A stretch of DNA of 64,000 bases from Natrinema caseinilyticum (lineage in GTDB: Archaea > Halobacteriota > Halobacteria > Halobacteriales > Natrialbaceae), in assembly GCF_024227435.1 (NCBI RefSeq), contig NZ_CP100445.1:1116001-1180000 (forward strand). Reading direction: 5' to 3'. The translations under genes were made by a program, and so were the position numbers. How positions within the stretch are numbered: position 1 is the stretch's first letter; each line of letters opens with the position of its first letter. A model generated the notes under the pieces. It made no database searches. It worked only from the letters and a program-made list of their open reading frames with translations, and was not told the DNA's origin. Positions 1 to 35,275 of this stretch are shown here, piece by piece.

Positions 1-526
1 GATCTTTGTCGGCGAGCCACGTCTTCGCCCGCTTGTTTATCTCTTCGGCCGTGGCGTAGTAGTGAGATTCCGTGAGCGCGTTCTTGACCCGTTGCCAGAC
101 ATGCATGTAGCCCTTCTCCAGTAATTCGAAGAGGAGTCCGTCCTCGTCCACATACTTCCGGACGTTGTCCCGGAGATTGTCCTCGTAACTCTGTCCAGTT
201 CCGTATCCGCGGTCGTAATTGTAATCGGCCCCAACGAACTTGTTGTCCGACCAGACGCCGCAGTCGTAGCCTGCCTGCGAGAGTTCCTCGGCGAGCGTGG
301 TGACGCCACCATCCTCGGGGATGCCCACACCGTCGATGCTACTCGGGTATCGCGACGCCATCAGGGAAGGAAATGATCCTGGTGTAAACCCGGCGTTCGA
401 GACGGCATTCTGGAAGTTTGTGGCTGTTTCGGCGGTCGAGGCGAGATAGGGCATCACGTTGTCGTCCATCGCACGGTCGTATCGTAAGCTGTCTCCGGAC
501 AGGATAATGATATTCGAGTCGTTCAT
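1..526 (-). CDS. Sulfatase-like (alkaline phosphatase superfamily) protein, 3' end outside window
   Basis: The gene runs off the left edge, so only about 175 N-terminal residues are visible from the ATG at 526. The start contains NIIILSGDSLRYDR, where the Asp fits the first metal ligand of sulfatases and phosphodiesterases. It is followed by TPGSFPSLMASRYPSS, which occupies the nucleophile loop with Ser or Thr and no Cys. The family hydrolyses or transfers sulfate or phosphate groups; the substrate cannot be told. It lies 64 bases behind the GT4 gene, as a sulfatase follows glycosyltransferases in the operon at 25.8-35.2 kb, so modification of a surface glycan is the likely role. This is inference. 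Confidence 0.75.
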   Translation of the reverse strand, partial: MNDSNIIILSGDSLRYDRAMDDNVMPYLASTAETATNFQNAVSNAGFTPGSFPSLMASRYPSSIDGVGIPEDGGVTTLAEELSQAGYDCGVWSDNKFVGADYNYDRGYGTGQSYEDNLRDNVRKYVDEDGLLFELLEKGYMHVWQRVKNALTESHYYATAEEINKRAKTWLADKD

Positions 527-590
527 TCTGACCTCCGAGTGGGAAGGAGACGGGAATTCGTATGCATCCGTTCCGTGTGACGGTGGTAAA

Positions 591-1703
591 TCATTCGTTT
601 GGCCATTCGTTCGGGTCGCAACCGTCATCGAAGAGAACTCGGCGTACTTCGTCGGAGAAGCGCTCCCGGCCGTATCGGTCGCGCGCTCGCTCGGCGATGT
701 CGGTGTAATCGTAATCTGCTCTATCGAACGTTGCGACCGCTTGAGCGATTGCGTCCGTTGTTGGGTCGACTCGAACTCCATCGGTGTTGCCGACCATGCA
801 CGTAGGGTTCGGCTCGTCGGCGACGATGAGTGGGGTACCCCAGCAGAGCAGTTCCGCGATGGCCATCCCGAAGTCCTCTTCCTCGGGGACAAACACGCCG
901 CATTGTGCACAGCGCATAAGATCCTCCAGTACGTCCTCGTCGACGAATCCGCGGAACTCCACGTCGGCACCACGAGCATTGGCCAGTGAGGTCAGATTGC
1001 TCCGGAGCGGCCCATCGCCAGCGACGACCAGCCGTTGGTCGGTCTGTGCGAGTGCCTCGATAAGCGTTTCCAGACGTTTGCGCTCTCCGAGTCGGCCTGC
1101 ATAGAGAAAGTAGTCATCACGCTCGTCGCTCGACAGGACCGGGTCGTCAGAGTACGCAATTGGTGGATTGACCACGGTGGCGTCCCGGCGATAGTGGCGG
1201 CAAATCCGGGACCGGGTAGTCTCACTGTTCGCCAGTACAGTCTCGACTCGTTGCATCTCCAGCCAATCGACGTACATTCCGAATTTTCGCGTGGCGTATC
1301 GGAGATTGCCCCGAATTCCGTTCAGCGAGTCTCGTCCGAGCCACTGAGCGTACCACAGTGGCGGGTGGTGGGTGTAGTGGACGTGACGTTGGAACGATTC
1401 GGGCTGATAGAACTTCGCGGGGACGCCGCTAGTAACGACTGTATCGTACGCTGGCAGGTGGAGCTTCCCGGTTTGGTACGCGACGTTGGCGTCCCGTAGG
1501 AGTGCGGGGAGTCGGTTCGAGCGCGGCGAATAGACGGTTACTTCACGTGGCGCGTGCTCGGCGTACCAGTCCCGACACCCCGTGCGGCCGACGTATAGAT
1601 CGGCGTCGAGCACCTGCGCGAGTTCGACGCTCACCTTGGCGGCCCCACCGGGCGTCTCCTTGCACCCATCATGGATGACCGCAATTCGCTCGTCGGCTGT
1701 CAC
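591..1703 (-). CDS. Family 4 glycosyltransferase
   Basis: GT-B fold glycosyltransferase of about 370 residues, expected to transfer a sugar from a nucleotide donor to a growing glycan on the cytoplasmic side. The second domain has FLYAGRLGERKRLETLIEAL and VVAGDGPLRSNL, and the donor-site E-x7-E motif reads EEEDFGMAIAELLCWG. I chose GTG 1703, giving MTADERIAVIHDG, over upstream ATGs at 1718 and 1739. GTG 1703 overlaps the TGA of the decayed GT2 frame by GTGA, and exactly the same GTGA junction joins the paralogous GT2 and GT4 genes at 34036-34039. The nearest relative in the window is the GT4 at 32765-34039, with a similar N-terminus and the HYPHSPP-like HYTHHPPLWY segment. Confidence 0.85.
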   Translation of the reverse strand: MTADERIAVIHDGCKETPGGAAKVSVELAQVLDADLYVGRTGCRDWYAEHAPREVTVYSPRSNRLPALLRDANVAYQTGKLHLPAYDTVVTSGVPAKFYQPESFQRHVHYTHHPPLWYAQWLGRDSLNGIRGNLRYATRKFGMYVDWLEMQRVETVLANSETTRSRICRHYRRDATVVNPPIAYSDDPVLSSDERDDYFLYAGRLGERKRLETLIEALAQTDQRLVVAGDGPLRSNLTSLANARGADVEFRGFVDEDVLEDLMRCAQCGVFVPEEEDFGMAIAELLCWGTPLIVADEPNPTCMVGNTDGVRVDPTTDAIAQAVATFDRADYDYTDIAERARDRYGRERFSDEVRRVLFDDGCDPNEWPNE

Positions 1704-2142
1704 GCAACGGTCCTCCATAACTCCTTGGTAGCCTCCCATGTGCCGTGGCCCTCGCCACGAAGGCGTTCGGTCATGGCGTGAAGGGGCGCCACCGCCGAGT
1801 CAAAAACCGGGTAGTGCGCTTGCCGGAGGCCGATTAGATCGTTTCGGCCTAACCAGACAAACTCGGCGAGTGATACCGGGATATCGAGTCCAGCGAGACT
1901 GGTGATAGCCGCTCCGGCCATAATCACGGCCAGCACGCCGAGCGTGACAAACCACGGTGAGAGTAACCTGATTCACCAGTTGAATGGCAGGACTGGCCTC
2001 CGATAGTTCCCATATTCTCTGAGTGTGCTGTGATACTCGGCTGCGGACGAACGAGGCCCAGCCCGCCGCGGTCTTTCTGGAGCTGTCGTTTGAGGAAGTC
2101 TGAATGGAGTGCCGCCTTTCTTTTCATTGGTCTTTCACTGGA
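1700..2142 (-). pseudogene. Decayed C-terminal fragment of a GT2 glycosyltransferase
   Basis: Two frames on the minus strand together match the last 150 or so residues of the GT2 genes at 2143-3300 and 34036-35196. Frame one reads LHSDFLKRQLQKDRGGLGLV, matching HSAFGKRRTQKDRRAMGLI of the intact neighbour, then NMGTIGG. The reading must then shift frame to give VLPFNW, an in-frame TGA, then LLSPWFVTLGVLAVIMAG, and it ends with GLRQAHYPVFDS and GTWEATKELWRTVA. The last matches GTWEPDRELREVLQ of the other copy. At least one frameshift and one stop are present and the catalytic N-terminal half is missing. The match begins right after the stop codon of the intact GT2, as expected from deletion between tandem copies. 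Confidence 0.85.
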
Positions 2143-3300
2143 TTATTGCTCGTACACGTCTCGCAGTTCCTCGTCTATGTCCCACACGGCCGACCCGCCT
2201 CCACGTACCAACTTCACCGCCGCAAAGAGTAGCGATACTTGCGTGTCGAACACCGCATACACCGACTGTAGGAGTCCGAGTCGTTCTCGCGATCCTAACA
2301 GCGTAAACACTCCAACCACCGCCGGCACAGTCAGGCCGAGTGGCCCTGCAACGAGCATGCCGAGAAGAGTCAGTAGACCAATAGCCGAGGCTAAAAGCAA
2401 CGGCGAGATAAGCATGAACCACCAGTTAAACGGCAGTACGACACCACCGTACAGGCCGTAATTCCCCAACATATCTTGCTGTTGAAGCAGTAACCGAATT
2501 AGTCCCATCGCACGGCGGTCCTTCTGTGTACGACGCTTACCGAATGCAGAGTGTGACGCTTCCTTGTATCGTACATCCGGATCAAACACGACGCGCTTAC
2601 CATTCTTTCGGATCTTCAGCGCGAGTTCAGTATCGTCGGCGATCGAGTTTGGATCAATCTGAACGATTTCGTCGTTCTCGAACGCCGAAAATGGCCCATG
2701 AAAGATGAACGTGGAATCTAAATGAGACTCGAGGGTCTGGATCGTCGCCTGTACGTTCCGGTATCCTTCTTCGACATTGCTTCCCCCAAGAACATCGACG
2801 TTCCGGCCTGTCACCGCACCAATATCAGGATCGGCGAGGTTCGCAGCGGCCTCACGGAGAGCATCAGCGGCTACTTCCGAGTCACAGTCGGTTTTTACAA
2901 CCATCTCGTTCTCGGCAGCAGCGTATGCATCATTTAATGCAGGGGCGAGTCCACGGCGTTCGTCCTCTTCGAGTAAGGTCAGTTCGGGATGTTGACGATC
3001 CGCGAAGAAATTTCGGATGATTTCGCGCGTCTCGTCATCGCTAGAATCGACGATCACTACCTCAACCTTCTCCATCGGATAGTCGAGTGAAAGAATATCG
3101 CGGAGTTTGTTCTCGATAATCCGTTCCTCGTTATACGTTGGCAAGACGATGCTCACCTCCGGTTCAGCAGGACGCTTATCGGCGGGCGATCCGTGCGGGT
3201 TCCATACTTTAACAAGGAGTAGGTAGACTGCATAGGGGAGTCCTGTGAAAGACAAGAGCGCCACTATGGCACCGAAGAGACGCCGAACGAGTTTTCGCAT
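2143..3300 (-). CDS. Family 2 glycosyltransferase, membrane-anchored
   Basis: Processive-type GT2 of about 385 residues. One N-terminal membrane segment (residues 5-28) precedes a GT-A domain with VSIVLPTYNEERIIENKL, KTDCDSEV as the metal-binding DxD, and a late QKDRRAMGLIRLLLQQQ region resembling the Q/R-x-x-R-W acceptor motif of synthases. Two or three membrane segments close the protein. I chose ATG 3300 (MRKLVRRLFG) because the paralogue starts MKRLVEALFG; an extension to 3345 has no counterpart. It is probably the first gene of a minus-strand group ending with the sulfatase at the window edge. The 142-base gap to divergent aglB holds both promoters. Its GC is visibly lower than that of the paralogue. 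Confidence 0.9.
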   Translation of the reverse strand: MRKLVRRLFGAIVALLSFTGLPYAVYLLLVKVWNPHGSPADKRPAEPEVSIVLPTYNEERIIENKLRDILSLDYPMEKVEVVIVDSSDDETREIIRNFFADRQHPELTLLEEDERRGLAPALNDAYAAAENEMVVKTDCDSEVAADALREAAANLADPDIGAVTGRNVDVLGGSNVEEGYRNVQATIQTLESHLDSTFIFHGPFSAFENDEIVQIDPNSIADDTELALKIRKNGKRVVFDPDVRYKEASHSAFGKRRTQKDRRAMGLIRLLLQQQDMLGNYGLYGGVVLPFNWWFMLISPLLLASAIGLLTLLGMLVAGPLGLTVPAVVGVFTLLGSRERLGLLQSVYAVFDTQVSLLFAAVKLVRGGGSAVWDIDEELRDVYEQ

Positions 3301-3404
3301 GGAGGGTCCTTCGCATAGCGACACAAAAACCCCGACGGTATCCATTATCGGACGTACCCGGCTTTTTCTCGTCCTTCAGAGCACGAGAGAACCACGAATA
3401 GATG

Positions 3405-3442: not shown

Positions 3443-6351
3443 TGAGTACAGATACCGAACACGTCGAGGAGGGAACCGCGACATCCGTCCTCGAGTCGTG
3501 GCGGGACTGGTATCACCTCCCCGTACTCGGAGTCGTGGTGCTGTTTATGATCTGGGTACGCACCCAGTCGTACGACCGGTTCGTCACCGACGACGGCGCG
3601 CCCGCGCTCGCGGGCGTCGACTCGTGGTACCACTGGCGGACGATCAACTGGACGGCGGAGAATTATCCGCACACGATGCCCTACGAGGTCTGGACGGGAT
3701 TCCCGACCGGCAACTACGTCGGCCAGTTCGGAACGCTGTACGACCAGCTCATCGTCACAGTGGCGATGATCGTCGGCCTCGGCGATCCATCACAGCAAAC
3801 CCTGTACACGATCTCGCTGCTCTCCATTCCGGTCATGGCTGCGCTCGTCGCGGTTCCCGTCTTCTACGCGGGTCGCCGTCTCGGCGGCACGCTCGGCGGA
3901 CTCGTCTCCGTCATCGTCCTCGCGCTCGCGAAGGGGCAGTTCCTCGCACGGTCAACTGTGGGCCAGCTCGACCACCACACTGGCGAAGTGTTGTTTATGG
4001 CCATCGCCGTCGTCGCGATGATGGTTGCCGTCACGGTCGGCGAACGCGAGAAGCCGATCTACGAACTGGTCTCTGATCGCGACTGGGATGCCCTCCGTAC
4101 ACCGGCCATCTACAGCGCACTCGCCGGGCTTGCCCTCACGCTGTATATTTGGGTTTGGCCGGCTGGGGTTTTACTAATCGGTATTTTCGGAGTTTACTTT
4201 GCGGTACAACTTTGTCTCGACTACATCCGAGGAGTCTCACCGGACCATATTGCCTTCGTTGGCTCTGTGAGCCTCGGGATCACGGCGATACTAACGACCC
4301 TGCTGATTGAGCAGCCCGGGAGTACAGGTACGACGAGTTTTGGATTCCTTCAACCGCTTTCTGCCCTCCTTGTGGCAGCAGGCTGTATATTCATGGCTTG
4401 GCTCGCTCGCGAGTGGAACAACCGGGACATAGAACGCCGCTACTACCCCGCAGCTATCGCCGGCATCATCGTCGCTGTCTTACTCGTCATGTGGCTCGCC
4501 CTCCCCGGACTCTATAATACGTTTGTCGGGAACCTCACGAGCCGCTTGCTCCCCCTGAATCCCAGCACCGGAACGCTCACTATCGTCGAGGCCCAGCCGC
4601 CGGACGACTTCTTCAACCGCGTCTTCATCGAATTCGGCAGCGCGTTCTACACGATGCTCGCCGGCCTCGCGTTCCTCGCGATCCGTCCCCTCCTGGGCCG
4701 AGACTTCCGTGCCGAACACACCCTCGTGATCGTCTGGTCGCTGTTCCTGATCAGCATGGCCGCGACGCAGGTGCGGTTCATGTACTACCTCGTGCTCGCG
4801 GTCGCGATCGTCAACGCGGCGTTCATCTCCGAAATCGTCCAGCTCTTTAGCCTCGACCTCGAGAGCGGGGTCGAAACCCTTCGGTCCGTCGAGACCTACC
4901 AGGTGATAGTGATCTTCCTCGTCGTACTACTCCTCTTCGCGCCGCTGCTCCCGCCATTGGCCCAGGCGACCGCCTGGGAGCAAGCGGAACGGACCGGCCC
5001 GCAGTCCGATGCGATGCTGTGGGAGGAGTCGAACCACTGGCTAAAAGAGAACACGCCCACGCCGGGAACCTATGGCGGTGCGGACAACGGAGGTCAGCTC
5101 GACTACTACGGGACCTACACGCCCGGTGATGGCAACTACGAGTATCCCGAGGGCGCCTACGGCGTGATGTCGTGGTGGGACTACGGCCACCTGATAACGA
5201 CGCAAGGCGAGCGGATTCCCCATTCGAATCCGTTCCAGCAGAATGCCCGTTCGTCCTCCGCGTATCTGACCGCCCAGTCCGAAGAGCGCGCGGAATTGAT
5301 CCTCGAGGGAATCGCCGAAGGCGAACCCGTCGTCGATCGATCGACCGAAGAACTCCGCCAGGCGGTATCGGGCAACGATTCGGACGAGCAAGAGGAGATG
5401 CGGTACGTGATGATCGACAACGCGATGGCCGCACAGAAGTTCAGTCCGATCACGCGATGGACCGGACCAAATTACAGCCACTACTACGGGAACGAGCAGT
5501 TCCAGGTCGGAGAGAACCAGACGCAACCGCTCCCGGCACCGAACGAGAACTACGACGACACGATGATCTCGTCCCTGTACCTCGAGGATGCGACCGGGAT
5601 GGAACACTACCGGTTGGTCCACGAGAACGATAAGTACGCGATCGTCGGTAGTATGGCCGTGAGACAGCAGGTGCAGCCCCACTACTCGCTGCAACTTCGT
5701 GGGTCTGGCTGGGACAATCAGACGGCGGCGATTGCGAACGGACTCGCGCAGGCGCGCAATGACAACCAGGTCTACCAGGGCCTCGGAACGCCGATGTGGG
5801 ACTCGCACGTCGTCTCGTCGGTGAAGACGTTCGAGCGTGTCGACGGTGCGACGATCACGGGGGGCGTCGACGGCGCGAACGAGATTGATACCGACAACGC
5901 GACGGCCGTGGTCGCGGTCGAACTCGAGACCAATACGGGCCGCAAGTTCACCTACAGACAGCAAGCGGACATAGCGGAGGATGGCACGTTCGAGGTGACG
6001 GTCCCGTACGCGACGAACGACGAACTCGGCGTCGACGACGGCTACACGGACAGCGGCGTCGAGGCGACCGGTAACTACACCGCCACCGTCCTCGAGACCG
6101 GCGGCGCGAGTCCGACCTACTACAGCGGCCAGACGGCCGTCCCCGAGACCGCAGTGGTCGAAGGTGAGTCGGTGGACGTCGCCCTCGAGCAAGTCGAGTC
6201 GCCCCCGAACAACGTGACGGACGGCAACGAAACGGACGGGAACGAGACCGGCGACGATAGCGATTCGGGCAACACGAACTCGTCGGACGACGGGACGGCA
6301 AACGAGACCGCGGCCGCGCTCGCAGCGATCGCGGCGGAACCGGCGAACTGA
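3442..6351 (+). CDS. aglB: Dolichyl-phosphooligosaccharide--protein glycotransferase AglB (STT3)
   Basis: Catalytic oligosaccharyltransferase of archaeal N-glycosylation. It moves the glycan from dolichol phosphate to Asn-X-Ser/Thr on the outer face of the membrane. The protein has about 969 residues. The N-terminal half has some 13 membrane segments and carries GVDSWYHWR (first acidic motif) and the external-loop motif STVGQLDHHTGE. The second half is extracellular with the signature WWDYGHLI at about residues 577-584. The C-terminal tail is rich in Asn, Asp and Gly and contains many N-x-T/S sites, so the enzyme may itself be glycosylated. ATG 3442 is preferred to TTG 3436. The flanking GT2, GT4 and sulfatase genes fit an agl locus. 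The segment around residues 234-320 is lower in GC than the rest. Confidence 0.95.
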   Translation: MSTDTEHVEEGTATSVLESWRDWYHLPVLGVVVLFMIWVRTQSYDRFVTDDGAPALAGVDSWYHWRTINWTAENYPHTMPYEVWTGFPTGNYVGQFGTLYDQLIVTVAMIVGLGDPSQQTLYTISLLSIPVMAALVAVPVFYAGRRLGGTLGGLVSVIVLALAKGQFLARSTVGQLDHHTGEVLFMAIAVVAMMVAVTVGEREKPIYELVSDRDWDALRTPAIYSALAGLALTLYIWVWPAGVLLIGIFGVYFAVQLCLDYIRGVSPDHIAFVGSVSLGITAILTTLLIEQPGSTGTTSFGFLQPLSALLVAAGCIFMAWLAREWNNRDIERRYYPAAIAGIIVAVLLVMWLALPGLYNTFVGNLTSRLLPLNPSTGTLTIVEAQPPDDFFNRVFIEFGSAFYTMLAGLAFLAIRPLLGRDFRAEHTLVIVWSLFLISMAATQVRFMYYLVLAVAIVNAAFISEIVQLFSLDLESGVETLRSVETYQVIVIFLVVLLLFAPLLPPLAQATAWEQAERTGPQSDAMLWEESNHWLKENTPTPGTYGGADNGGQLDYYGTYTPGDGNYEYPEGAYGVMSWWDYGHLITTQGERIPHSNPFQQNARSSSAYLTAQSEERAELILEGIAEGEPVVDRSTEELRQAVSGNDSDEQEEMRYVMIDNAMAAQKFSPITRWTGPNYSHYYGNEQFQVGENQTQPLPAPNENYDDTMISSLYLEDATGMEHYRLVHENDKYAIVGSMAVRQQVQPHYSLQLRGSGWDNQTAAIANGLAQARNDNQVYQGLGTPMWDSHVVSSVKTFERVDGATITGGVDGANEIDTDNATAVVAVELETNTGRKFTYRQQADIAEDGTFEVTVPYATNDELGVDDGYTDSGVEATGNYTATVLETGGASPTYYSGQTAVPETAVVEGESVDVALEQVESPPNNVTDGNETDGNETGDDSDSGNTNSSDDGTANETAAALAAIAAEPAN

Positions 6352-25831: not shown

Positions 25832-27274
25832 CTACAACTCGAGTCGCGAACTTCGGACGACACCCTCGACCGTGACGCGGAGTTTGCGACTGATCGCCGC
25901 TAGCGTGAGGGCGTAGACCGTCCCACCCAGGGCGACGACCGCGAGGAGATGGTACCAGCGATCGATCACCACTGCGTTTGCCGTGGGAACGACCACGGCG
26001 AACATGAGGACGCTCGCGGCGAACTGCTCCGCCAGGGTCCGCGGGAACAGTTCCGCGCCCGGAACGTATTGTGTGACGACGTACGCGGTCGCACCGTATC
26101 GAAGCGACTCCGCGGCGATCGTCGCGACGACGACACCGATCGCGCCGTAGGTAAGCGTCAGCGCGATGCCGAGGAGAATATTGAATCCGAGCGTCAGCGC
26201 CGAGATGCGGGTGTTGACGTCGGGCCGATCGATCCCGTCGACGACCTGCGAGAGGGTTCCGCTCTGAGTCCTGACGAGCTGGTAGAGCGCGAGGCCGACC
26301 AGCAGCGACGCCGCGTCGGCGTAGTCGGGACCGTAGAAGGTGACCACCAGCCGATCGGACAGCGCGAGTGCGCCGAAGAACATCGGGATCGCGACGATGC
26401 TCGTAAAGGCCAGCGTGTTCGAGACGTCCTCGCTCAGGCTCTCGCCCTTGCTGTGACGGTGGCTCACGCGGGCCATCAGCCCGCTCGAGGCGGCCATCAT
26501 CACGAACGTCGCGGGGACGGTGAGTTTGAACGCGACCTCGTAGTTGCCGGCGGCGGCGGGGGCCAACAGCCAGCCGAGCAGGAGGACGTCGAATCGGTCG
26601 TAGGCGGTTCCGAGCAGCGCGTTGACGCTGCTGTATCGAGCGTACGACCAGAGGTTAGAGAGCGTGTCCCGTCCCGGGACCGCGGGAGACGCGGGGACGA
26701 AGTACCAGAGGACGGGCAGCGAGAGGACGGTCGCGGCGGCGAGTCCGTAAGCCATCCCGGCGGCGCCCAGTCCCAGGAGAACCAGCCCGAGTTGCAACGG
26801 GAACGTAAGCAGCGAGCGGAGGGTATCGGTCCACATCGAGGCCCCGATGCGGCCCTGCGCCTGGACGATGCTGTCGATCGGCTCGTAGAGGGAGACGGCC
26901 GCGATCAGGACGAGGAACAGAATCGGCGCCTCCGGCAGGGACGTATACGCGATCAGCCACGGTGCGGCGACCGCGACCGCGACGGCCGCGAGAAGGATCC
27001 AGCCGACTGAAAAGGCGAATTGACTGCCGAGTAGTTCCGCCTTCGGGGATCCCGCCTCCGAGTAGCGTTTCTTGACCGCGACACCCCACCCGACCACGGC
27101 GCGGTCGGTGAGCTTGACGAGCGCGAACAACAGATAGAACCCGCCGAACGCGGTCGGTCCGAGGATGCGCGCGAAGACGATCGTCCCGACGAATCCGACG
27201 GCGGCCATCGTGAACTTCGCGGCGGTGGCTTTGACGGTCTCGCCGCCGAGACTCACGCTCGAGGCGGCGGTCAT
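25832..27274 (-). CDS. Polysaccharide/lipid-linked oligosaccharide flippase (Wzx/MATE-like)
   Basis: A 480-residue protein with about 13-14 hydrophobic segments and the polysaccharide transporter start GGETVKATAAKFTMAAVGF. It should flip a lipid-linked glycan from the cytoplasmic to the outer face so that it can be polymerised or transferred by AglB. It is the last gene of the nine-frame operon and its ATG overlaps the stop of the phosphodiesterase gene by ATGA (27271-27274). Confidence 0.9.
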   Translation of the reverse strand: MTAASSVSLGGETVKATAAKFTMAAVGFVGTIVFARILGPTAFGGFYLLFALVKLTDRAVVGWGVAVKKRYSEAGSPKAELLGSQFAFSVGWILLAAVAVAVAAPWLIAYTSLPEAPILFLVLIAAVSLYEPIDSIVQAQGRIGASMWTDTLRSLLTFPLQLGLVLLGLGAAGMAYGLAAATVLSLPVLWYFVPASPAVPGRDTLSNLWSYARYSSVNALLGTAYDRFDVLLLGWLLAPAAAGNYEVAFKLTVPATFVMMAASSGLMARVSHRHSKGESLSEDVSNTLAFTSIVAIPMFFGALALSDRLVVTFYGPDYADAASLLVGLALYQLVRTQSGTLSQVVDGIDRPDVNTRISALTLGFNILLGIALTLTYGAIGVVVATIAAESLRYGATAYVVTQYVPGAELFPRTLAEQFAASVLMFAVVVPTANAVVIDRWYHLLAVVALGGTVYALTLAAISRKLRVTVEGVVRSSRLEL

Positions 27275-28188
27275 TCCAGGTAGCCGAGTTCGCGCAGTCG
27301 GTCGGTCGGCATCTCGATAGCCTCGTCACCGTCGTCGTCCGTAGTAGTGGCGGTCGCGGCCCGCGTTTCCACCCACTCCCGAACGCCGTAGACGGACTCG
27401 GGACGGGATTCGGCTGTCGTACTCGCGTAGGCCCGCCAGGAGTGGCTCGCGGGATCTTCGTCGGCGTCGGGCGGGTAAAACGCCGTCCGCATGCCGTGAT
27501 CGGAGAGGACGACCAGTTCGTCGTCGGGACCGAGCGCGTCGGCCACCTCGTCGACGAAGCCGCCGATCCGCTCGTAGGCGCGCCCGAGCGCGGCCTCGTC
27601 GTCGGCGTAGGCGTGACCCGCCGCGTCGAGGGCGTGGACGTGGACGCCGGCGATCGAGACCGGATGACGCACCATCTCTCGAGCCCAGCCGAACTGCCCC
27701 GCGGCCTGACCGAACAGTTCCCGTTCGAACTCGCTTCGCCCCATGCCCTCCGACACGGCGTTCATCAGGTCCCAGGCCCGCTGGAGCGGTCGGCCGTCCT
27801 GGACGCCGGGCCAGTTGTGAACGACCGCGTCCGCGGCGTCGAACATCGACTCGCGATCGGTTTCGCCGATTCGCTCGCGCTCGCCGGTTCGCGTTCGGAC
27901 GAACCTGCCGAGAGACCCGCGCGTCCCCTCCGAGAGGCGACCCGTGAATCGCGAGGCGAACTCGAGCGCCGGGTTGTCCCACTCGCTCGTCCCGGCCGCG
28001 GAGATCCCGTGGTCCGCCGGTGGAAGCCCCGTCGCGACTGTCGCCCACACCTCCGGCGTGTACGGCACGTCCTTGGTATGAGCGAAGGTCTCGAGCGGTC
28101 CGGACGACTCGAGTCGGAAGGCGGAGACGTCGAAGTGGTCGATCAATCCTTCGTCGAGCGCGTCCAGCGCGAGGACGAGCACCGTCAT
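27271..28188 (-). CDS. Type I phosphodiesterase / nucleotide pyrophosphatase-like protein
   Basis: A 305-residue alkaline phosphatase-superfamily enzyme. MTVLVLALDALDEGLIDHFD gives the first metal Asp, and DVPYTPEVWATVATGLPPAD carries the Thr nucleophile. VHALDAAGHAYADDEAA and LVVLSDHGMRTAFYPP supply the remaining Asp and His ligands. It probably cleaves or transfers a phosphodiester on a glycan or lipid carrier; that role is inferred from the operon. ATG 28188 overlaps the preceding sulfatase stop by ATGA, and the stop overlaps the flippase start by ATGA. Confidence 0.85.
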   Translation of the reverse strand: MTVLVLALDALDEGLIDHFDVSAFRLESSGPLETFAHTKDVPYTPEVWATVATGLPPADHGISAAGTSEWDNPALEFASRFTGRLSEGTRGSLGRFVRTRTGERERIGETDRESMFDAADAVVHNWPGVQDGRPLQRAWDLMNAVSEGMGRSEFERELFGQAAGQFGWAREMVRHPVSIAGVHVHALDAAGHAYADDEAALGRAYERIGGFVDEVADALGPDDELVVLSDHGMRTAFYPPDADEDPASHSWRAYASTTAESRPESVYGVREWVETRAATATTTDDDGDEAIEMPTDRLRELGYLE

Positions 28189-29309
28189 ACGTACCCGAGA
28201 TCCTCCAGGTCTTCCTGCAAGGCTTCCTCTTTGACGACGTACGCCGGATCGAACCGCCGACGCGCTCGCTCGAGGTCGGGATCGCTCGCCGGTTCGCCGG
28301 TCGAAAGCGTGAGGGTCCCGTCGCCGGTCGCCAGCAAGCGGTCGTCCATCGCGGCCGTTCGATCTCCGTAGGAGGCGAACGCCCGCTCGCGCTCGAGCGT
28401 GCCGACGCCGTGTTCGCGCCCGACCAGAATCGAGGGGACGTCGACGAGCGAGACGACCTCGCCGAGATCGGGGGCGTTCCGGGTGCCGAACGGAACGTGG
28501 AGCAGTTCCCGGCGCAGTTCGCCGGGATGGCCCCACAAATCGTCCTCGCCGAGTAACTCGCCGTGGTCGGCACAGAAAACTACGCGCGCGTCGTCCGGAA
28601 CGGCCTCCCAGAGGGGGTCGAGGGCGGCGTCGAGTTCGGCGACTTCACGTCGATAGAGCCTCCGAACCAGTTCTTCGTCGGATTCGGAGCCGCCACCGGC
28701 GAGTACGGTTCTCGTGACGCGCTGGGCCTCGTCGCGGCTCACCGGCGCGCCATCGGGATCGTAGGGGTGGTGCGGTTCCATGAAGTGGAGCCAGCCGAAC
28801 CACGACTCTCGGCCGCCGATCTCCCGCCGGAACGACTCGATTACGTCGTCGGCACGGCGGAACGACTTTTCGACCTCGCCGACGAGGCTCCGGGCCTGCT
28901 GGTAGCGGTTCCACCCCCACGTCGCGACGCGGTGGGCGAGCGTCCCGCGTTGCAACAGGACCGCGCCCCTGTCCTTTATCGACTCCCCGCCACCTTTCGG
29001 CGACGCGAACGAGTCGAAGCCAGCGTCGTACCCGTACTCCGAGGAAAGCAGATGGTTGGTGGTGATGCCGGCGCTGTAGGGCTCGAACTCGTGTGCCACG
29101 CTCCGCTCGCTCTCGAGTCCGCCTCCCGACGCGTACTCGCCGCCGACGATGGCTGGCACGCTCCCGAGCGTCGCCGTACTGGTCGCGAAGGCCCGGTCGT
29201 GAGTGCGCTTGAGGAAGCGCCGCGTTCGGGGCATCTGGTCGAAGTGATCGTAGCGCAACGAATCGACGGTCACGAGCAACGTCCGGTCGTGTGTGGTATC
29301 GCCTGTCAT
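28185..29309 (-). CDS. Sulfatase-like protein 2 of the polysaccharide operon
   Basis: A 374-residue sulfatase-family protein. The first metal site is LLVTVDSLRYDHFD, and the nucleophile loop reads ATSTATLGSVPAIVGGEYAS, with Ser/Thr and no formylglycine-type Cys. Then come GWLHFMEPHHPYDPDG and VVFCADHGELLGEDDLWGHP with the Asp-His and His ligands. The missing Cys suggests a phosphoryl or sulfuryl transferase rather than a true sulfatase; that is inference. The C-terminus LQEDLEDLGYV has the ELGY-type end also seen in its operon neighbours. It is joined by ATGA to the frames on both sides. Confidence 0.85.
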   Translation of the reverse strand: MTGDTTHDRTLLVTVDSLRYDHFDQMPRTRRFLKRTHDRAFATSTATLGSVPAIVGGEYASGGGLESERSVAHEFEPYSAGITTNHLLSSEYGYDAGFDSFASPKGGGESIKDRGAVLLQRGTLAHRVATWGWNRYQQARSLVGEVEKSFRRADDVIESFRREIGGRESWFGWLHFMEPHHPYDPDGAPVSRDEAQRVTRTVLAGGGSESDEELVRRLYRREVAELDAALDPLWEAVPDDARVVFCADHGELLGEDDLWGHPGELRRELLHVPFGTRNAPDLGEVVSLVDVPSILVGREHGVGTLERERAFASYGDRTAAMDDRLLATGDGTLTLSTGEPASDPDLERARRRFDPAYVVKEEALQEDLEDLGYV

Positions 29310-29461
29310 CGATTACTCCGTCGGAATCGAGCAGTGTCGCGGCCCTCTGAGGCCGGGTCGGCCATCGACTCGAGTTTCGTCGCGTCGCCGACGACGGCCG
29401 TCGACTCGGCGTTCCACGTCGAGCCAGCGGTCGCGGTCGATCGGAACGGTCCCTCGCTCAT
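29306..29461 (-). CDS. Possible 51-residue coupled ORF between two sulfatase genes
   Basis: The frame begins MSEGPFRSTATAGSTW and ends RDTARFRRSNR. It exactly fills the gap between the two sulfatase-like genes and overlaps each by ATGA (29458-29461 and 29306-29309). It is Ser/Thr/Ala/Glu-rich with a basic end and shows no known motif or membrane segment. The double coupling is the main argument that it is translated, since an untranslated gap would break the chain. It could also be a fossil linker, so confidence is limited. Confidence 0.45.
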   Translation of the reverse strand: MSEGPFRSTATAGSTWNAESTAVVGDATKLESMADPASEGRDTARFRRSNR

Positions 29462-30879
29462 CTGTATCCCAACTCCTCGAGTCGCCGTTCGACCGTCGCA
29501 TCGACGTCCTGGTCCGTATCCGTTTCGATCGCCTGCGCGCGTTCCTTGTACGCGCGAATTTCGACGTCGAAGAACGCCCGCGCCCACGACGGGATGGCGA
29601 CGTCGTCGTTGTTTGCCCGTCGCTGCCAGCAGGGCCGCTCGTGATCGATTTCGTACTTCCGGCTGGCGCCGAGCGAATCCCAGACGTACTTGCGTTCGCC
29701 GTCGTACGCGCAGCGGAGCATCCGATCCCAGTAGCGGTATTCCTCGGGACCGCCCGGCGGACCGCCGATGCTGACGCCGATCAGCTCCGCCGGGACGCGC
29801 TCTCGGAAGAGAGACGGCGTCTCGTCGTTCGCCAGGCCGACGATGAGGTCGCCGAGCTCGAGGTGACTGAAGTACGACGGTTCGGTCGGCTCGTACCCCT
29901 CGGGCGGGTTGATCAGGTAACACGGAACGTGCAACAGCGACTCCGTGAGACTGCTCGTGTGGCCGAACAGGTCGTCGTCTTCGGGATAGGCCAGATTTTC
30001 CCCGTGATCGGCGGTGACGACGAACGTCGTTTCCCGGTCCGTCTGGCGCTGAATCTCGGCGATAAACGAGGCGACCGTTCGATCGAGATAGTCGATCGCC
30101 GCACCGTACAGCTCGCGGTGATACCGGATATCCTGTTCGTGGTCGGCCGAGACGCCCTCGATGTTGATCTCCCAGTCGTCGAAGGCGAAGGACGTCCAGT
30201 CGTTCGGGGCGGAGTGGAGGTTCCTGTCGTAGCCCAGAACGTGGTGAACCGGCCCGTGAGCGTCCATAAAATTGGTGAACAGGAAGAACGGCCCCTCGGT
30301 CGAATCGACCATCGAGCGCCCCTCGCTCGAGACGATCGACGCGCCATCGTCGAGGACTTTCGGCACCGGCGCGCGACGGAAGAGGTCGTTCGCCTTGAAT
30401 AGCACGCCGTTACCGAGGCTTTCCAGCGTGTGATCGTGGCGGAGGGCCGCGCGAAGAAACTCCAGGTAGCGCCGGACGCCGTCCTCGTCGCGATCCTGGA
30501 TGAACTTCTCCATGTCCATCCCGTCGGGGAATCGGCGGTGGGGTGCGATGTCGGAGTAGCGGTCGAAGACGGCGTCGAAGCCGAAGGTGGAACTGGCGTA
30601 GACGTTCGCGCTGGCACCCAGTGCGGTGTGATCAGGGATGTCGGCCAGGAACGTGTCCGACCGCGAGAGGTCGGCGAAGTCCCGGTTGTGGGTGTGAATC
30701 CCGTGCTGGTGGGGCAACGCGCCCGTCAGAATGCTGGCGTGGCTGGGCGTACTCCACCCGCTTGCGGCCCGACACTGCTCGAAGGAGACGCTCGCCAGCT
30801 CCTGTAACCGGGGCGCGTAGTCGTCGAAATAGTCCTTGCGGACCGTATCGAGGCAGATCAGGACGACGTTTCTGGTCAT
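29458..30879 (-). CDS. Sulfatase-like protein 1 of the polysaccharide operon
   Basis: A 473-residue sulfatase-family protein with VLICLDTVRKDYFDDYAPRL as the first metal site and SGWSTPSHASILTGALPHQH as the nucleophile loop. There the formylglycine Cys/Ser position is Ser. FFLFTNFMDAHGPVHHVLGY and FVVTADHGENLAYPEDDDLF supply the His and Asp-His ligands. The protein ends VERRLEELGYR. It lies 22 bases behind a GT4 gene and likely edits or decorates the glycan. Whether sulfate or phosphate is handled cannot be read from sequence. Confidence 0.87.
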   Translation of the reverse strand: MTRNVVLICLDTVRKDYFDDYAPRLQELASVSFEQCRAASGWSTPSHASILTGALPHQHGIHTHNRDFADLSRSDTFLADIPDHTALGASANVYASSTFGFDAVFDRYSDIAPHRRFPDGMDMEKFIQDRDEDGVRRYLEFLRAALRHDHTLESLGNGVLFKANDLFRRAPVPKVLDDGASIVSSEGRSMVDSTEGPFFLFTNFMDAHGPVHHVLGYDRNLHSAPNDWTSFAFDDWEINIEGVSADHEQDIRYHRELYGAAIDYLDRTVASFIAEIQRQTDRETTFVVTADHGENLAYPEDDDLFGHTSSLTESLLHVPCYLINPPEGYEPTEPSYFSHLELGDLIVGLANDETPSLFRERVPAELIGVSIGGPPGGPEEYRYWDRMLRCAYDGERKYVWDSLGASRKYEIDHERPCWQRRANNDDVAIPSWARAFFDVEIRAYKERAQAIETDTDQDVDATVERRLEELGYR

Positions 30880-30901
30880 ACTCGTCTCACGGACGGTCGA
30901 G

Positions 30902-32068
30902 TCACGCGACCACCTCGGTCACGGCACGCCGAAATTCTGTGGCCTGATTCGACTCGGTGAGGGGCGTCACTCGCTCCCGAAGGGCGGCCCCCCGCTCTCG
31001 GCGCTCGTCGGCCGTCAGCGAGCGGGCGTACTCGATCCCCCACCGCACGTCCCGCGCGGTCGGCGCGCGAACCAGCAACGGATCGACGTCCTCGACGAGT
31101 TCTCGAGTCCCCGTTTCCGTCGAGACGACGGTCGGGAGGCCCGCGAGCATCGCCTCGAGGGTCGCGACCGGGAACGCGTCGCCGGAACTCGCCTGGACGT
31201 AGACGTCGGCCGCCGCGAACTCGGCGGCGAAGTCCGCGAGTTCGAGGTAGCCGGGTGCCTCGACGCCGGAGTGACCGCTGTAATCGAACTGGTCGTGGCC
31301 GGAGCCGAGCAGTCGGAGCGTCCAGTCCGAACGGCTGGCGACCACTCGAGCGAGGAGGTCGACGTTCTTCTTCGCGACGGCAGTTCGATCGCTCACGGTA
31401 CCGGCGTGGAGGATCCGGGTCGGTTCGCTACGCGAGCCTTTGCCGGTGGCGCTCGAGTCGGAGCCGGTAGCGCCGGGGTCGGGACCGGATTCGTCGGTGG
31501 CGCCCCCGACGCCGGATCCGTCGGTGCGTGTCGCCGCAGCGTCGGATTCCCGGTCGACTCGATCGGCCGCCGAGCAGACCCGACGGCCGATGGGCTCGAG
31601 GGCCTCGTACTTTGCATCGGCGATCGGCGGGTGGACGATTTCGAACGGGACCGCGAGATACCGGCTGGCCCACGAGCGCGCGCGGTCGCCGACGGCGATG
31701 GCGCCGGAGACGGCGCGACTCATCACGGGCCCGAGTACGTGACGCCAGACCCGGTGGGTGTGCTGATCGCGGATCTTCAGGAACGTCTCGTCGGCGATCA
31801 GCGGGACGACGCGTGCGTCCCACCGATTGAACAGTTTGTAGAACAGCAACGTGTAGATCGGCGTCGTTCCCTCGCCGATCACGACGTCGTAGGACTCGAG
31901 GTCGACGGCGGTCTGAAGTCGCGCCAGCATCGAGTCGAGGTTCGCTTCGGGGCCACCGATCTCCGCCCCCGTCTCGAAGTGGCGGTAGTCGGCGTCGACG
32001 GCGTCGCCGAAGACGCGGTGTGCGTGATGGGGCTGGTGGAACTGGTGGAGCATCAACACGTCAGCCAC
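30902..32068 (-). CDS. Family 4 glycosyltransferase with a disordered insert
   Basis: A 388-residue GT-B enzyme. The N-terminal domain has HQFHQPHHAHRVFGDAVDAD and ESYDVVIGEGTTPIYTLLFY, the C-terminal domain RILHAGTVSDRTAVAKKNVD, and the donor loop VQASSGDAFPVATLEAMLAG (E-x7-E region). Between about residues 175 and 225 lies a Gly/Ser/Asp/Thr-rich linker with GSGVGGATDESGPDPGATG, absent from usual GT4 proteins. The start at 32068 overlaps the end of the upstream GT2 by eight bases. Confidence 0.87.
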   Translation of the reverse strand: MADVLMLHQFHQPHHAHRVFGDAVDADYRHFETGAEIGGPEANLDSMLARLQTAVDLESYDVVIGEGTTPIYTLLFYKLFNRWDARVVPLIADETFLKIRDQHTHRVWRHVLGPVMSRAVSGAIAVGDRARSWASRYLAVPFEIVHPPIADAKYEALEPIGRRVCSAADRVDRESDAAATRTDGSGVGGATDESGPDPGATGSDSSATGKGSRSEPTRILHAGTVSDRTAVAKKNVDLLARVVASRSDWTLRLLGSGHDQFDYSGHSGVEAPGYLELADFAAEFAAADVYVQASSGDAFPVATLEAMLAGLPTVVSTETGTRELVEDVDPLLVRAPTARDVRWGIEYARSLTADERRERGAALRERVTPLTESNQATEFRRAVTEVVA

Positions 32069-32768
32069 GCCCTCTCACCCCCGTCCCGTAGCGAACGGCA
32101 TCGACGGCGTCCCAGACGCCCTTCCGCCAGAGCCAGTCGTTGACTCGGCCGGCGAGCGTGTCCGGAACGACGACCGCCTCGTATTTCTCCGGATGGCGGC
32201 GCCGCAGCAGTCGCTCGTTTTCCCGGACGATCGACGACCGCGGTCTGTCGGGGTGGACCATGCGTACGCGTTCGTCGTAGACGGCCGTTCCGTACTCCTC
32301 CATGCGCCAGCCGAACTCCGTGTCTTCGCGCCAGTATTCGAACCGTTCGTCGAACCCGCCGGCGTCGATAGCCGTCCGGCGATCGACCGCGAGGTTACAG
32401 GTGGGATACTTGCGTCGTCCCTCGTAGGTCATCCCGCCGTCGACAGGCCCCTCGAGAAGTACGAGGTCGTCACGCTCGTCGAAGGCTCGACGGATCGCCT
32501 CGACCCAGCCGACCGGCGGCCGGCAGTCGTCGTCGGTGAAGGCGACGATCTCTCCGTCGGCCCGCTCGAGGCCCAGGTTTCGCGCCTCGCAGACGCCCAG
32601 GTCGGGGTCGTTTACGACGAGAACGTCGTAGTCGGCGGCGGTCTGGCGCTCGAGTGCGGCGACGACCGCATCGTGGTCGTTCTCGGGGATCGTCGGAACG
32701 ACGACGGAGACGGCGGGGTCGGGGTGTCCGATCGGCCGCAGAAAGGCGCTCGCCGCCCTCGCCGTCAC
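32061..32768 (-). CDS. Family 2 glycosyltransferase, soluble
   Basis: A 235-residue GT-A enzyme without membrane segments. PAVSVVVPTIPENDHDAVVA is the nucleotide-binding strand, DYDVLVVNDPDLGVCEARNL and IVAFTDDDCRPP carry the DxD metal site, and FEYWREDTEFGWRMEEYG matches the ED-x-E/D acceptor motif. It probably adds one sugar to a lipid-linked intermediate. Its start and end overlap the flanking GT4 genes. Confidence 0.88.
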   Translation of the reverse strand: MTARAASAFLRPIGHPDPAVSVVVPTIPENDHDAVVAALERQTAADYDVLVVNDPDLGVCEARNLGLERADGEIVAFTDDDCRPPVGWVEAIRRAFDERDDLVLLEGPVDGGMTYEGRRKYPTCNLAVDRRTAIDAGGFDERFEYWREDTEFGWRMEEYGTAVYDERVRMVHPDRPRSSIVRENERLLRRRHPEKYEAVVVPDTLAGRVNDWLWRKGVWDAVDAVRYGTGVRGRG

Positions 32769-34039
32769 TGATCGGTCACCCCTTCGAGTTCGCTGTCAGC
32801 AGTGTCGTCGACGCCCCCCGTCAGTTCCTCGACCGTCTGGGGCCGGGTCTCGTCGCGATCCTGCGTCGACTCCGACGATCCCGCGTCGTCGATCCGATCC
32901 GGCCGGGTCGGTTCCAGTTTCGAGGCGTCGACGTCGGCGACGGCCGTCTCCCCGGTAACGGTTCGGAGATTCTTCGCGAAGCACTCGTATTCGTAGCACC
33001 TGGCGGCCTCCCGGATCTCGGCGGGATCGAAATCGGCGGGGTCGAACCGCCGAACCGTCTCTCGAATCGACGCGACTGTCGGCTCGAAGAGCAGGCCCGT
33101 CCGACCGCCTTGCACCTGATACCGGGTGAACCCCTCGTTTACGCCGAGCAGCGGTTTGCCGGCCATCATGGTTTCCGCGCCCACGAGGCCGAAGTCCTCC
33201 TGTTTCGGTGCGTAGACGACCGCGGTCGCCCGGGCGACGAGCGACTCGATGTCGTCGACGTATCCCCGGACCTCGATGTTGTCGTGGGCGGTTGCGAAGT
33301 CCTCGAGTTTGTCGCGCTGTTTGCCGTCGCCGGCGATGACGAGCCGTTCGTCGAGCCCCGCAAAGGCCGTCGCGATCAGGTCGATCCGCTTTTCGGGGGC
33401 GAGTCGCGACCAGGTGACGAAGTAGCCGTCGTCGCCCTCGTTTCGCCAGTCGCCCGTAACCGGCGGATAGACGACCACCGCGTCGCGGCCGTAGAACCGT
33501 CGGATCCGGTCCCGGACCAGTTCGCTGTTCGCGACGAACTGGTCGACGTAGTCGTTGGCCTCCTTGTCGAGCGCCCGCCACACTTTCGCGTAGGCCTTGA
33601 TACCGGCCTCGACGATCGGTGTATCGAACGACGAGAGCCGATCCCGGTACAGGTCGTAGAGCCACCGCGGCGGACTGTGGGGGTAGTGGACGATCCGCTG
33701 GTCGACCTGCGGGACGTAATATTTCGACAGCGGCGCGCTCTCGAGGATCACGTCGTACGCGGCGAGATCCGGGTGCGCGTCGGTCATGTCGAGCGCCACG
33801 TTGAGCGTCTCGAGCGGGTTCATCCCCTCGTTCTTCCACTCGAGGAAGGGCCGCCACGGCAGCGAGGTGTACTTGGATTGGCGAAACGGGATCACGTCGA
33901 CGTCCGGGGGAAGGTCCGTCCCGTCGGCCACGTAGGTCGTGTAAATCGGCGCGTCGAGGACGCGCGCGGCCTCGATAGCGAACTCTTCGCCGCCGCCGAT
34001 TCCCGGAAACCGGTCGTGGAGGATCGCCACGTCGGTCAC
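32765..34039 (-). CDS. Family 4 glycosyltransferase
   Basis: A 424-residue GT-B enzyme starting at GTG 34039 (MTDVAILHDRFPGIGGGEEF), with GTGA overlap to the GT2 before it. The C-terminal domain has YFVTWSRLAPEKRIDLIATA, VIAGDGKQRDKLEDF and the E-x7-E region APKQEDFGLVGAETMMAG. The last 60 residues are an acidic, low-complexity tail with no counterpart in the copy at 591-1703. It is the paralogue of that gene, with matching HYPHSPPRWLYDLYRDRL. The donor sugar is unknown. Confidence 0.9.
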   Translation of the reverse strand: MTDVAILHDRFPGIGGGEEFAIEAARVLDAPIYTTYVADGTDLPPDVDVIPFRQSKYTSLPWRPFLEWKNEGMNPLETLNVALDMTDAHPDLAAYDVILESAPLSKYYVPQVDQRIVHYPHSPPRWLYDLYRDRLSSFDTPIVEAGIKAYAKVWRALDKEANDYVDQFVANSELVRDRIRRFYGRDAVVVYPPVTGDWRNEGDDGYFVTWSRLAPEKRIDLIATAFAGLDERLVIAGDGKQRDKLEDFATAHDNIEVRGYVDDIESLVARATAVVYAPKQEDFGLVGAETMMAGKPLLGVNEGFTRYQVQGGRTGLLFEPTVASIRETVRRFDPADFDPAEIREAARCYEYECFAKNLRTVTGETAVADVDASKLEPTRPDRIDDAGSSESTQDRDETRPQTVEELTGGVDDTADSELEGVTDQ

Positions 34040-35196
34040 TGTAACACCTCGCGGAGTTCTCGGTCGGGTTCCCAGGTGCCGTCGTGGGATTCGGCCTCGT
34101 CACCGCGAGCGCGGACGAGGGAGACGCTCGCGCGGAGCAGCGAGATCTGCGTGTCGAAAAGCGAGTAAAACGGCTGGAGCGGGCCGAGCGCGTCGCGGGA
34201 GCCGAGGGCGGTGAACGCGAGGACGCCGGCCGGCGTCACCAGCCCGAACGGCCCGAGAACGGCCAGCGAACCGACCGTGGCCACGGTCACGCCGGTGGCG
34301 ACGAGCCACGGCGAGACCATCATGAACCACCAGTTGAACGGCAACACGATGCGACCGTACGCCCCGTGTCGGCCCAGCGCGTCGCGCTGTCGCCACAGTA
34401 ATCGAAGGAGTCCCATCGCGCGTCTGTCTTTCTGCTCGCGGCGCTTGCCGAACGCGGAGTGGGCCGCCTCCTTGTAGTGGATCTCGGGGTCGAAGACGAC
34501 GCGGCCGCCGTTGCGCCGGATTTTGAGGGCGAGTTCGGTGTCGTCGGCGATCGAGTCCTCGTCGATCGGGACGATCGCGTCGCGTTCGAACGCCGAGAAC
34601 GGACCGTGAAAGATCAGCGTCGAGTCGATGTGCGACTCGAGGACCTGGATCATCGTCTGGATGTCTCGATAACCCTGCTCGACCTCGCTGTCGCCGATGA
34701 CCTCCGCGTTCCGGCCGGTCACCCCCGCGACGTCGGGATCGGCGAGATTCGCGACCGCCTTCCGAACGGCGTCGGAGGCGAGGCGCGAATCGCAGTCGGT
34801 CTTGATGACGACCTCGTTCTCCGCGGCGGCGTAGGCCTCGTTCAGCGCCGTCGCGAGTCCTCGACGCTCGTCCTCACGGAGGAGCGAAAGCGACGGGGCC
34901 CGTCGGCCGGCGAAGAAGTCCTCGACCAGTTCGGCCGTCTCGTCGTCGCTCGAGTCGACCACGACGATCTCGACCTTCTCCATGGGGTAGTCGAGGGTGA
35001 CCAGTTCCTCGAGTTTCGATTCGACGATCGCGGCTTCGTTGTACGTCGGCAGGACGATACTGACCGACGGCTCTTCCGGCCACGTATCCGCGGGCGTTCC
35101 GGACGGCTGCCGGAGGTAGTACGAACCCAGGTAGATTAGATACGGGAGACCCGTCAGTGCAACTAACCCGAACAGGGCCTCGACGAGACGCTTCAT
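34036..35196 (-). CDS. Family 2 glycosyltransferase, membrane-anchored
   Basis: About 386 residues, closely similar along its whole length to the GT2 at 2143-3300. Shared segments include SIVLPTYNEAAIVESKL, KTDCDSRLASDAV, AHSAFGKRREQKDRRAMGLL and VLPFNWWFM. It has one N-terminal anchor and C-terminal membrane segments. ATG 35196 (MKRLVEALFG) is preferred to an in-frame extension to 35328, which reads into the promoter region. GAGGT 13 bases before the ATG is a possible ribosome site. It is the first gene of the operon running to 25832. Confidence 0.9.
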   Translation of the reverse strand: MKRLVEALFGLVALTGLPYLIYLGSYYLRQPSGTPADTWPEEPSVSIVLPTYNEAAIVESKLEELVTLDYPMEKVEIVVVDSSDDETAELVEDFFAGRRAPSLSLLREDERRGLATALNEAYAAAENEVVIKTDCDSRLASDAVRKAVANLADPDVAGVTGRNAEVIGDSEVEQGYRDIQTMIQVLESHIDSTLIFHGPFSAFERDAIVPIDEDSIADDTELALKIRRNGGRVVFDPEIHYKEAAHSAFGKRREQKDRRAMGLLRLLWRQRDALGRHGAYGRIVLPFNWWFMMVSPWLVATGVTVATVGSLAVLGPFGLVTPAGVLAFTALGSRDALGPLQPFYSLFDTQISLLRASVSLVRARGDEAESHDGTWEPDRELREVLQ

Positions 35197-35199
35197 GCG

Positions 35200-35275
35200 A
35201 GTATACCTCAACAGAGTACAGCTCTCATTAAAGACAGACCCCTTGCTATAGAAAGTTATCTTAAGTCCCCGTGGA
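35200..35275 (-). promoter_or_regulatory. Promoter region of the nine-frame polysaccharide operon
   Basis: On the minus strand, ACTTAAGATAACTTTCTATA (about 35247-35266) is AT-rich in a GC-rich setting and lies about 55-65 bases before ATG 35196. It is the only good TATA candidate upstream of the operon. No further strong internal promoter was seen until 25832, so the nine frames probably depend on it. Confidence 0.4.

Follow-up and report, generated by a model that had tools for sequence, protein, structure and literature searches.

Organization of the locus

The window analysed here, a stretch of 64,000 nucleotides from the haloarchaeon Natrinema caseinilyticum, corresponds to bases 1116001-1180000 of the main replicon; the genome measures 4.77 Mb. 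Positions 25832-35196 of its minus strand carry nine consecutive frames, all of them open, which encode four glycosyltransferases (GTs; GT2a, GT4a, GT2b and GT4b), two PF00884 proteins of the alkaline phosphatase (AP) superfamily (sulfA and sulfB), an open reading frame (ORF) of 51 amino acids (aa) lying between them, a PF01663 member of the same superfamily (PDE) and a MOP-type flippase (Table 1). We regard this block as probably a conserved glycan-assembly operon, most likely one for the N-linked glycan of S-layer and other surface proteins, in which sulfA and sulfB, and perhaps PDE, act in biosynthesis. The N-glycan as product, sulfate as the transferred group and the direction of the reaction are the parts of this reading that we infer.

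The frames, their order and their families agree with the original prediction, which was made from the sequence of the window, and Pfam families could be assigned to all frames except the 51-aa ORF. Of the eight junctions, six are 4-base GTGA/ATGA overlaps; GT2b and GT4b overlap by 8 bases, and a 22-base gap separates GT4b from sulfA. A further 4-base overlap listed at first does not exist, since nine frames have eight junctions and nine had been listed. Because about 35 Natrialbaceae genomes share the gene order and the 4-base sulfB-PDE overlap is kept in 15 of the 18 loci checked, the arrangement goes beyond chance. The genes overlap or nearly overlap throughout, so that separate promoters would be possible only inside coding sequence, and the nine-frame block is likely transcribed as one unit. 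A candidate promoter element precedes GT2a, and the alignment of upstream regions shows it conserved although the surrounding DNA has diverged. GT2a has a hydrophobic segment at its C-terminus by hydropathy, and GT4b of this strain contains a low-complexity insert rich in Ser, Gly, Ala and Asp (window 31420-31545).

Table 1. Features of the probable glycan-assembly locus and the oligosaccharyltransferase gene in the window.
Feature	Position in window	Strand	Description
GT2a	34036..35196	-	GT2 glycosyltransferase, 386 aa, PF00535/PF13641
GT4a	32765..34039	-	GT4 glycosyltransferase, 424 aa, PF00534; conserved second gene
GT2b	32061..32768	-	GT2 glycosyltransferase, 235 aa, PF00535; variable-block gene
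GT4b	30902..32068	-	GT4 glycosyltransferase, 388 aa, PF13692
sulfA	29458..30879	-	AP-superfamily PF00884, 473 aa, tail LEELGYR
51-aa ORF	29306..29461	-	open frame between sulfA and sulfB
sulfB	28185..29309	-	AP-superfamily PF00884, 374 aa, core gene, tail LEDLGYV
PDE	27271..28188	-	PF01663 NPP/iPGM-type, 305 aa, tail LRELGYLE
flippase	25832..27274	-	MOP-type, PF13440, 480 aa; co-varies with variable block
upstream element	35238..35262	-	CTATAGCAAG; in relatives ACAATGCAAG; about 50 bp before GT2a (upstream alignment); candidate promoter element
AglB	3535..6351	+	oligosaccharyltransferase, 938 aa, PF02516/PF22627/PF18079

Active sites and folds of the AP-superfamily enzymes

SulfA and sulfB match PF00884 above cut-off. 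Residues D16, T47, H175, H180, H181, D248, H249 and H261 are invariant among 31 sulfB sequences; the sulfA site (D11/S43/H208/D291/H292/H307; 16 sequences) is complete, as is the two-metal set of PDE (D9/T44/D188/H192/D230/H231/H249), which is invariant in 21/21 sequences. The nucleophile position holds T47 in 31/31 sulfB, S/T43 in 16/16 sulfA and T44 in 21/21 PDE proteins. The formylglycine (FGly) motif Cys/Ser-x-Pro/Ala-x-Arg of classical sulfatases is absent from all of these aligned sequences (31 sulfB, 16 sulfA, 21 PDE), the corresponding position reading T47-L-G-S in sulfB and S/T43-x-P-S/A-H, without Arg in 16/16, in sulfA. The genome has no match to PF03781, the family of the formylglycine-generating enzyme (FGE), in a search whose controls were positive (anaerobic sulfatase-maturing enzymes were not searched for), and none to the sulfotransferase family PF13469. 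A simple hydropathy scan predicted no membrane span in sulfA, sulfB or PDE. Desulfation by the classical mechanism is unlikely because both the formylglycine motif and a PF03781 FGE are lacking. A Ser/Thr nucleophile would suit transfer, as it could carry a covalently bound group and hand it over to the hydroxyl of a sugar.

The AlphaFold model of sulfB (pLDDT 83.7) matches S1 sulfatases at Z 25-29. The best of these matches, at Z 28-29, are S1 sulfatases and phosphonate monoester hydrolases: choline sulfatase 6fny (Z 28.8), FA22070 6hhm (Z 28.6, root-mean-square deviation 4.0, 316 aligned residues) and BT1596 5g2u (Z 28.0, deviation 3.3, 304 aligned), the latter two being tied with other S1 sulfatases. 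The metal ligands D, D and H lie at equivalent sites, but sulfB differs in having Thr for the FGly Cys, no x-Pro-x-Arg, no membrane span and no PF03781 protein in the genome. The Enterococcus arylsulfatase EfAS was considered as a precedent for a Thr nucleophile and rejected, as it uses Cys/FGly; its metal set D20/D311/H312 parallels D16/D248/H249 of sulfB. The PDE model (pLDDT 75.5) matches NPP and cofactor-independent phosphoglycerate mutase (iPGM) at Z ~16 and shares their seven two-metal ligands, but PDE differs from this group in its length of only 305 aa, its C-terminal tail and its location in a glycan operon. A search for a known phage family returned only weak matches to PHROG 19870, whose function is unassigned.

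These folds also bear on an alternative in which sulfA and sulfB are phospho-transferases or phosphodiesterases of the LtaS/PbgA type, moving phosphoglycerol or phosphoethanolamine, and, together with PDE, build groups linked by phosphodiester bonds instead of sulfate. Members of the lipoteichoic acid (LTA) synthase type typically have a Thr nucleophile, the sulfB fold matches include LtaP (Z 25.0) and, in Foldseek, PbgA/YejM, and PDE is NPP/iPGM-like. However, LtaS and PbgA work on the outer side of the membrane and use lipid donors, whereas sulfA and sulfB have no membrane span; the best fold matches of sulfB are S1 sulfatases, and the nearest tested relatives, Agl30 and Agl31, are sulfotransferases. 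We therefore consider the phospho-transferase alternative unlikely, though one to be taken seriously.

Resemblance to the N-glycan sulfotransferases Agl30 and Agl31

Halobacterium salinarum Agl30 (VNG1056C, Q9HQQ3) and Agl31 (VNG1057C, Q9HQQ2) were described in 2025 as AP-superfamily N-glycan sulfotransferases, whose deletion removes the sulfates from the N-glycan and whose expression in Haloferax volcanii H53 adds them (PMC11980604). The PDB entries closest to them are 6hhm for Agl31 and 5g2u for Agl30 (PMC11980604), and the sulfB model, the one compared in this respect, shares this AP-like fold and these closest entries. Agl30 and Agl31 further resemble the operon enzymes in ending on L-x-x-L-G-Y and in being encoded in an aglB-anchored glycan cluster, and Agl31 is cytosolic. 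They differ in that their cluster and its gene content are other ones, and PDE belongs to another Pfam family (PF01663); we know of no PF01663 sulfotransferase of the Agl30/Agl31 kind.

The published primers (PMC11980604) encode the tails HLEDLGYL (Agl30), LEELGYT (Agl31) and KELGYIE (VNG1063H), together with internal peptides that distinguish two families. The Agl31 peptide NYIQAA fits the sulfA family only, in which the pattern N-[YLFV]-[IM]-[QED]-A/P is found in 49 of 52 proteins and in none of the others, so that the sequence signature of sulfA is compatible with Agl31. The VNG1063H peptide VHYFQPH and the DFGHLDM/ITDRTV pair of Agl30 are signatures of the small X family only (VHY[FML]QPH in 31/39 X-family proteins, 0 in others). 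X-family proteins have little or no Pfam match, carry the signatures VHYMQPH and TDRxV and the LGY tail, and probably represent the family of Agl30 and VNG1063H, judging from these peptides. Runs of two to four paralogous X-family proteins, AP-like and of ~300 aa, were seen in loci L116, L120, L121, L123, L124 and L126 (~6.6-10.5 kb). The Agl30/Agl31 primer patterns, with two mismatches, matched none of the 392 genomes screened across the order and none of 13 from a single genus suspected to be Halobacterium; C5-epimerase-anchored loci of that genus, tried as the source of Agl30/Agl31, did not match the primers.

With this precedent, the suggestion in the original prediction that the three enzymes add or remove charged groups holds insofar as such groups are altered, and addition fits better than removal: by analogy, the AP-superfamily enzymes probably act inside the cell to attach charged groups, not to strip them. 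The accompanying idea of a highly anionic surface is weaker than stated, as the sulfates of Halobacterium altered the overall charge of the glycan only slightly (PMC11980604).

A shared C-terminal tail

SulfA, sulfB and PDE all end in L-x-x-L-G-Y followed by one or two residues. In 62 loci and the window this ending is present in 175 of 182 AP-superfamily genes as against 2 of 645 other genes, a count for which a Fisher p-value is not meaningful as such, because the loci are phylogenetically related and partly redundant (some are the same genomes from two sources, and only identical protein calls were merged). AP-superfamily members were called by hidden Markov models built without the last 15 residues. 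Of the seven exceptions, three have variant forms of the motif, which is as invariant as the catalytic residues, and four of seven relatives from bacterial metagenomes have it. Two further sulfatase-like proteins encoded at a distance from the operon also end in LxxLGY (G000:C1:336249, L001, and 1865627, L002), and two other sulfatase-like proteins of the genome (L003, L004) lack this ending. No published description of the tail was found in the literature searched.

AlphaFold leaves sulfB residues 357-374 and the PDE linker 281-293 unfolded (pLDDT <50), and because the tail is unfolded in the models a docking role is conceivable; it may be a docking motif. One could go further and picture a common docking tag, with flexible linkers tethering enzymes of at least two branches of the AP superfamily (PF00884, PF01663 and the small ~300-aa family) to one partner, be it a glycosyltransferase, the flippase or the membrane, in an assembly that modifies glycans in the cytosol and exchanges its members from one operon type to another, but this proposal is speculative and we hold it to be doubtful. 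A free C-terminus is not needed under over-expression, since Agl30 and Agl31 are active with tags fused after the tail.

Conservation of the operon and its exchangeable block

Orthologs of sulfB and PDE are adjacent in about 30 genomes. The relatives of the window belong to Natrinema and Haloterrigena, the nearest named one being Natrinema gelatinilyticum (sulfB 88%). The whole block was read in 23 relatives. In all of them GT2a and GT4a lead and sulfB, PDE and the flippase close the block in the same direction, the PDE ortholog being missing in one; genes of RibK and RibB type, named by eye from their sequences, lie upstream in the opposite direction. Between these constant ends, the middle genes of the relatives and the window fall into three swappable types.

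Type I (the window and two relatives) has the order GT2b-GT4b-sulfA-methyltransferase. Type II (n=13) carries a different GT4, sulfA at 39-42% identity, a pyruvyl transferase and, preceding the flippase, a second sulfatase-like gene. The pyruvyl transferase, called in one representative (PF04230, L072:6827-7840), is a polysaccharide pyruvyl transferase by sequence and would supply another anionic modification. Type III (n=8) has another GT2 and a sulfA-like gene at 26-28%; most of its loci also contain a small AP-like gene, an additional GT2 and, encoded on the opposite strand, a second PDE. This second PDE paralog (37-40%) lies between PDE and the flippase, for example at L071:11165-12100 and L102:12088-13041. 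GT2b is represented in type III at 56-63% identity and absent from type II, and GT4b has a counterpart at 37-38% in type II, with none detected in the eight type III loci.

The identity of GT2a tracks species divergence (RibB 76-91%, GT2a 72-93%), and GT2a and GT4a would probably make a common first part of the chain. Identities of sulfB, PDE and the flippase are 83-92% within type I and ~67-77% between types, and this drop is also seen in genomes with an equally close RibB; the downstream part has therefore been exchanged or co-adapted with the glycan type. Bacterial O-antigen and capsule loci likewise have constant ends, an exchangeable block and a flippase that co-varies with the glycan genes. 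The present operon differs from them in being archaeal, in having no recognised Wzy polymerase and in carrying at least three AP-superfamily modifiers per locus.

The original prediction had counted the 51-aa ORF as a member of the operon; that it is a functional one is not supported. In both type I relatives (L069, L070) a frame of 202-212 aa fills the sulfA-sulfB gap, its start point downstream of sulfA coinciding with that of the 51-aa ORF, and the family search run on L070 identified an S-adenosylmethionine (SAM)-dependent methyltransferase domain (PF08241). The methyltransferase frame is also open in Natrinema gelatinilyticum BND6. The 51-aa ORF is similar to the L069/L070 frames at its 5' end (72% over 47 bases and 69% over 74 bases), with partial, weaker similarity at its 3' end, and in Haloarcula rara a methyltransferase homolog (50%) also stands between sulfA and sulfB. 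An internal deletion is the simplest account: the ORF is probably the remnant, of moderate homology, of a methyltransferase gene that lost ~450-480 bases. It has no Methyltransf_11/25 match, and no intact methyltransferase copy was found elsewhere in the genome, where only a 35% partial match to another protein turned up. That the ORF is instead a genuine small operon protein seems improbable: its start codon is preserved and it overlaps both neighbours by ATGA, but its sole Pfam match is a sub-threshold one to DUF4170, it was not seen in relatives, and the methyltransferase frame occupies exactly its site.

Linkage to aglB and the probable product of the operon

Scanning named genomes for sulfB gave 31 haloarchaeal loci, and in 14 of these aglB lies within 10 kb of sulfB; all seven of the large neighbouring proteins examined carry STT3/AglB domains. 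The aglB-linked loci are those of Halorussus, Haloferax marisrubri, Halorubrum trapanicum, Halolamina, Haloarcula rara, Halalkalicoccus, Halobacterium sp. CBA1126, Ca. Halobonum and one metagenome-assembled genome, and the typical order in Halorussus and Haloferax is GT2a, GT4, two to four small AP-like genes, sulfB, flippase, aglB. Together with the GT2/GT4 enzymes and the flippase, this linkage supports the prediction of a polysaccharide operon building a lipid-linked glycan. The N-glycan is its most likely product because the same module lies near aglB in other genera. In N. caseinilyticum the AglB gene, the only genomic STT3 match, lies at a distance of about 20 kb; AglB is the likely user of the operon's glycan.

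A similar combination is known from the low-salt pathway of Haloferax volcanii (Agl5-Agl15), in which GTs, a sulfation component (Agl7) and a flippase (Agl15) are encoded in one cluster and sulfation takes place on the lipid-linked glycan, Agl7 contributing to sulfation of the dolichol phosphate (DolP)-linked sugar (PMC3871713). The operon differs from that cluster in having no nucleotide-sugar genes.

We propose that GT2a and GT4a would start a lipid-linked chain at the cytosolic membrane face, and that GT2b and GT4b would extend this chain in a type-specific manner. SulfA and sulfB, and perhaps PDE, would then modify the chain by transferring groups in the cytosol, with sulfation via a covalent Ser/Thr intermediate as the most likely reaction, which we propose for Agl30/Agl31-like enzymes as well. 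The MOP flippase would flip the finished lipid-linked glycan and AglB would transfer it to Asn. The methylation step of the relatives has probably been lost in this strain through the internal deletion that left the 51-aa remnant.

It should be noted that several observations weigh against this proposal. No Natrialbaceae locus read has aglB within 10 kb of the operon, and in N. caseinilyticum aglB has a different cluster next to it (window 1-3345 and G000:C1:1111000-1116500, L094), which holds GT4, GT2 and four or more AP-superfamily genes. Some of its AP genes encode small X-type proteins, LGY tails occur there as well, and it is probably the main aglB-anchored N-glycan locus. Given this cluster and the distance from aglB in Natrialbaceae, the operon could serve another glycoconjugate. 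The link to Agl30 and Agl31 is drawn from short primer-encoded peptides and the shared fold, and VNG1063H, whose tail is of this kind too, did not affect N-glycan sulfation (PMC11980604). As regards the supply of 3'-phosphoadenosine 5'-phosphosulfate (PAPS), a possible sulfate donor, a search for adenosine 5'-phosphosulfate (APS) kinase gave only a weak, partial match. The role of PDE is the least certain among the three enzymes: from its model it looks like a phosphorus-transfer enzyme, it is absent from the Halorussus/Haloferax loci, and with sulfB intact it is split into two frames in one genome (G072:C3:3382819-3383732), cut short in another (G063:C66:41706-42155) and without ortholog in a third (G016, L098).

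The same distance from aglB speaks for an alternative in which the operon makes a secreted acidic exopolysaccharide or another lipid-linked polymer, decorated by the AP enzymes, rather than an N-glycan. MOP flippases also serve polysaccharide export, and the exopolysaccharide of Haloterrigena turkmenica is sulfated. Its secretion by this species is cited in PMC9409974. On the other side, the operon block contains no recognisable gene for a polymerase or for export, the module adjoins aglB in many other genera and the number of glycosyltransferases fits a short oligosaccharide, so that we judge this alternative distinctly unlikely. That sulfA, sulfB and PDE are true sulfatases or phosphatases removing groups in editing or salvage, as their family names and complete metal sites might suggest, is very improbable in view of the missing Cys/Ser-x-Pro-x-Arg motif and PF03781 FGE (with the limit of that search given above), the lack of a membrane span and the embedding of their genes among biosynthetic ones.

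Implications

The kind of system to which we assign the operon, with 'sulfatases' that are probably biosynthetic, has been known since 2025; what is new is a locus family whose middle block is exchangeable, the presence of a PF01663 enzyme in it, the probable loss of a methyltransferase and the tail signature. The constant and variable parts of the operon provide a ready comparison of glycan types among close Natrinema species, and loss of the methyltransferase predicts a specific difference in glycan mass. Annotation names such as sulfatase and phosphodiesterase imply breakdown, whereas the evidence places these enzymes on the building side. If this is true, about 180 genes in the examined loci alone are probably misnamed glycan-modifying transferases, and the L-x-x-L-G-Y motif would offer a simple signature for finding and testing such enzymes.

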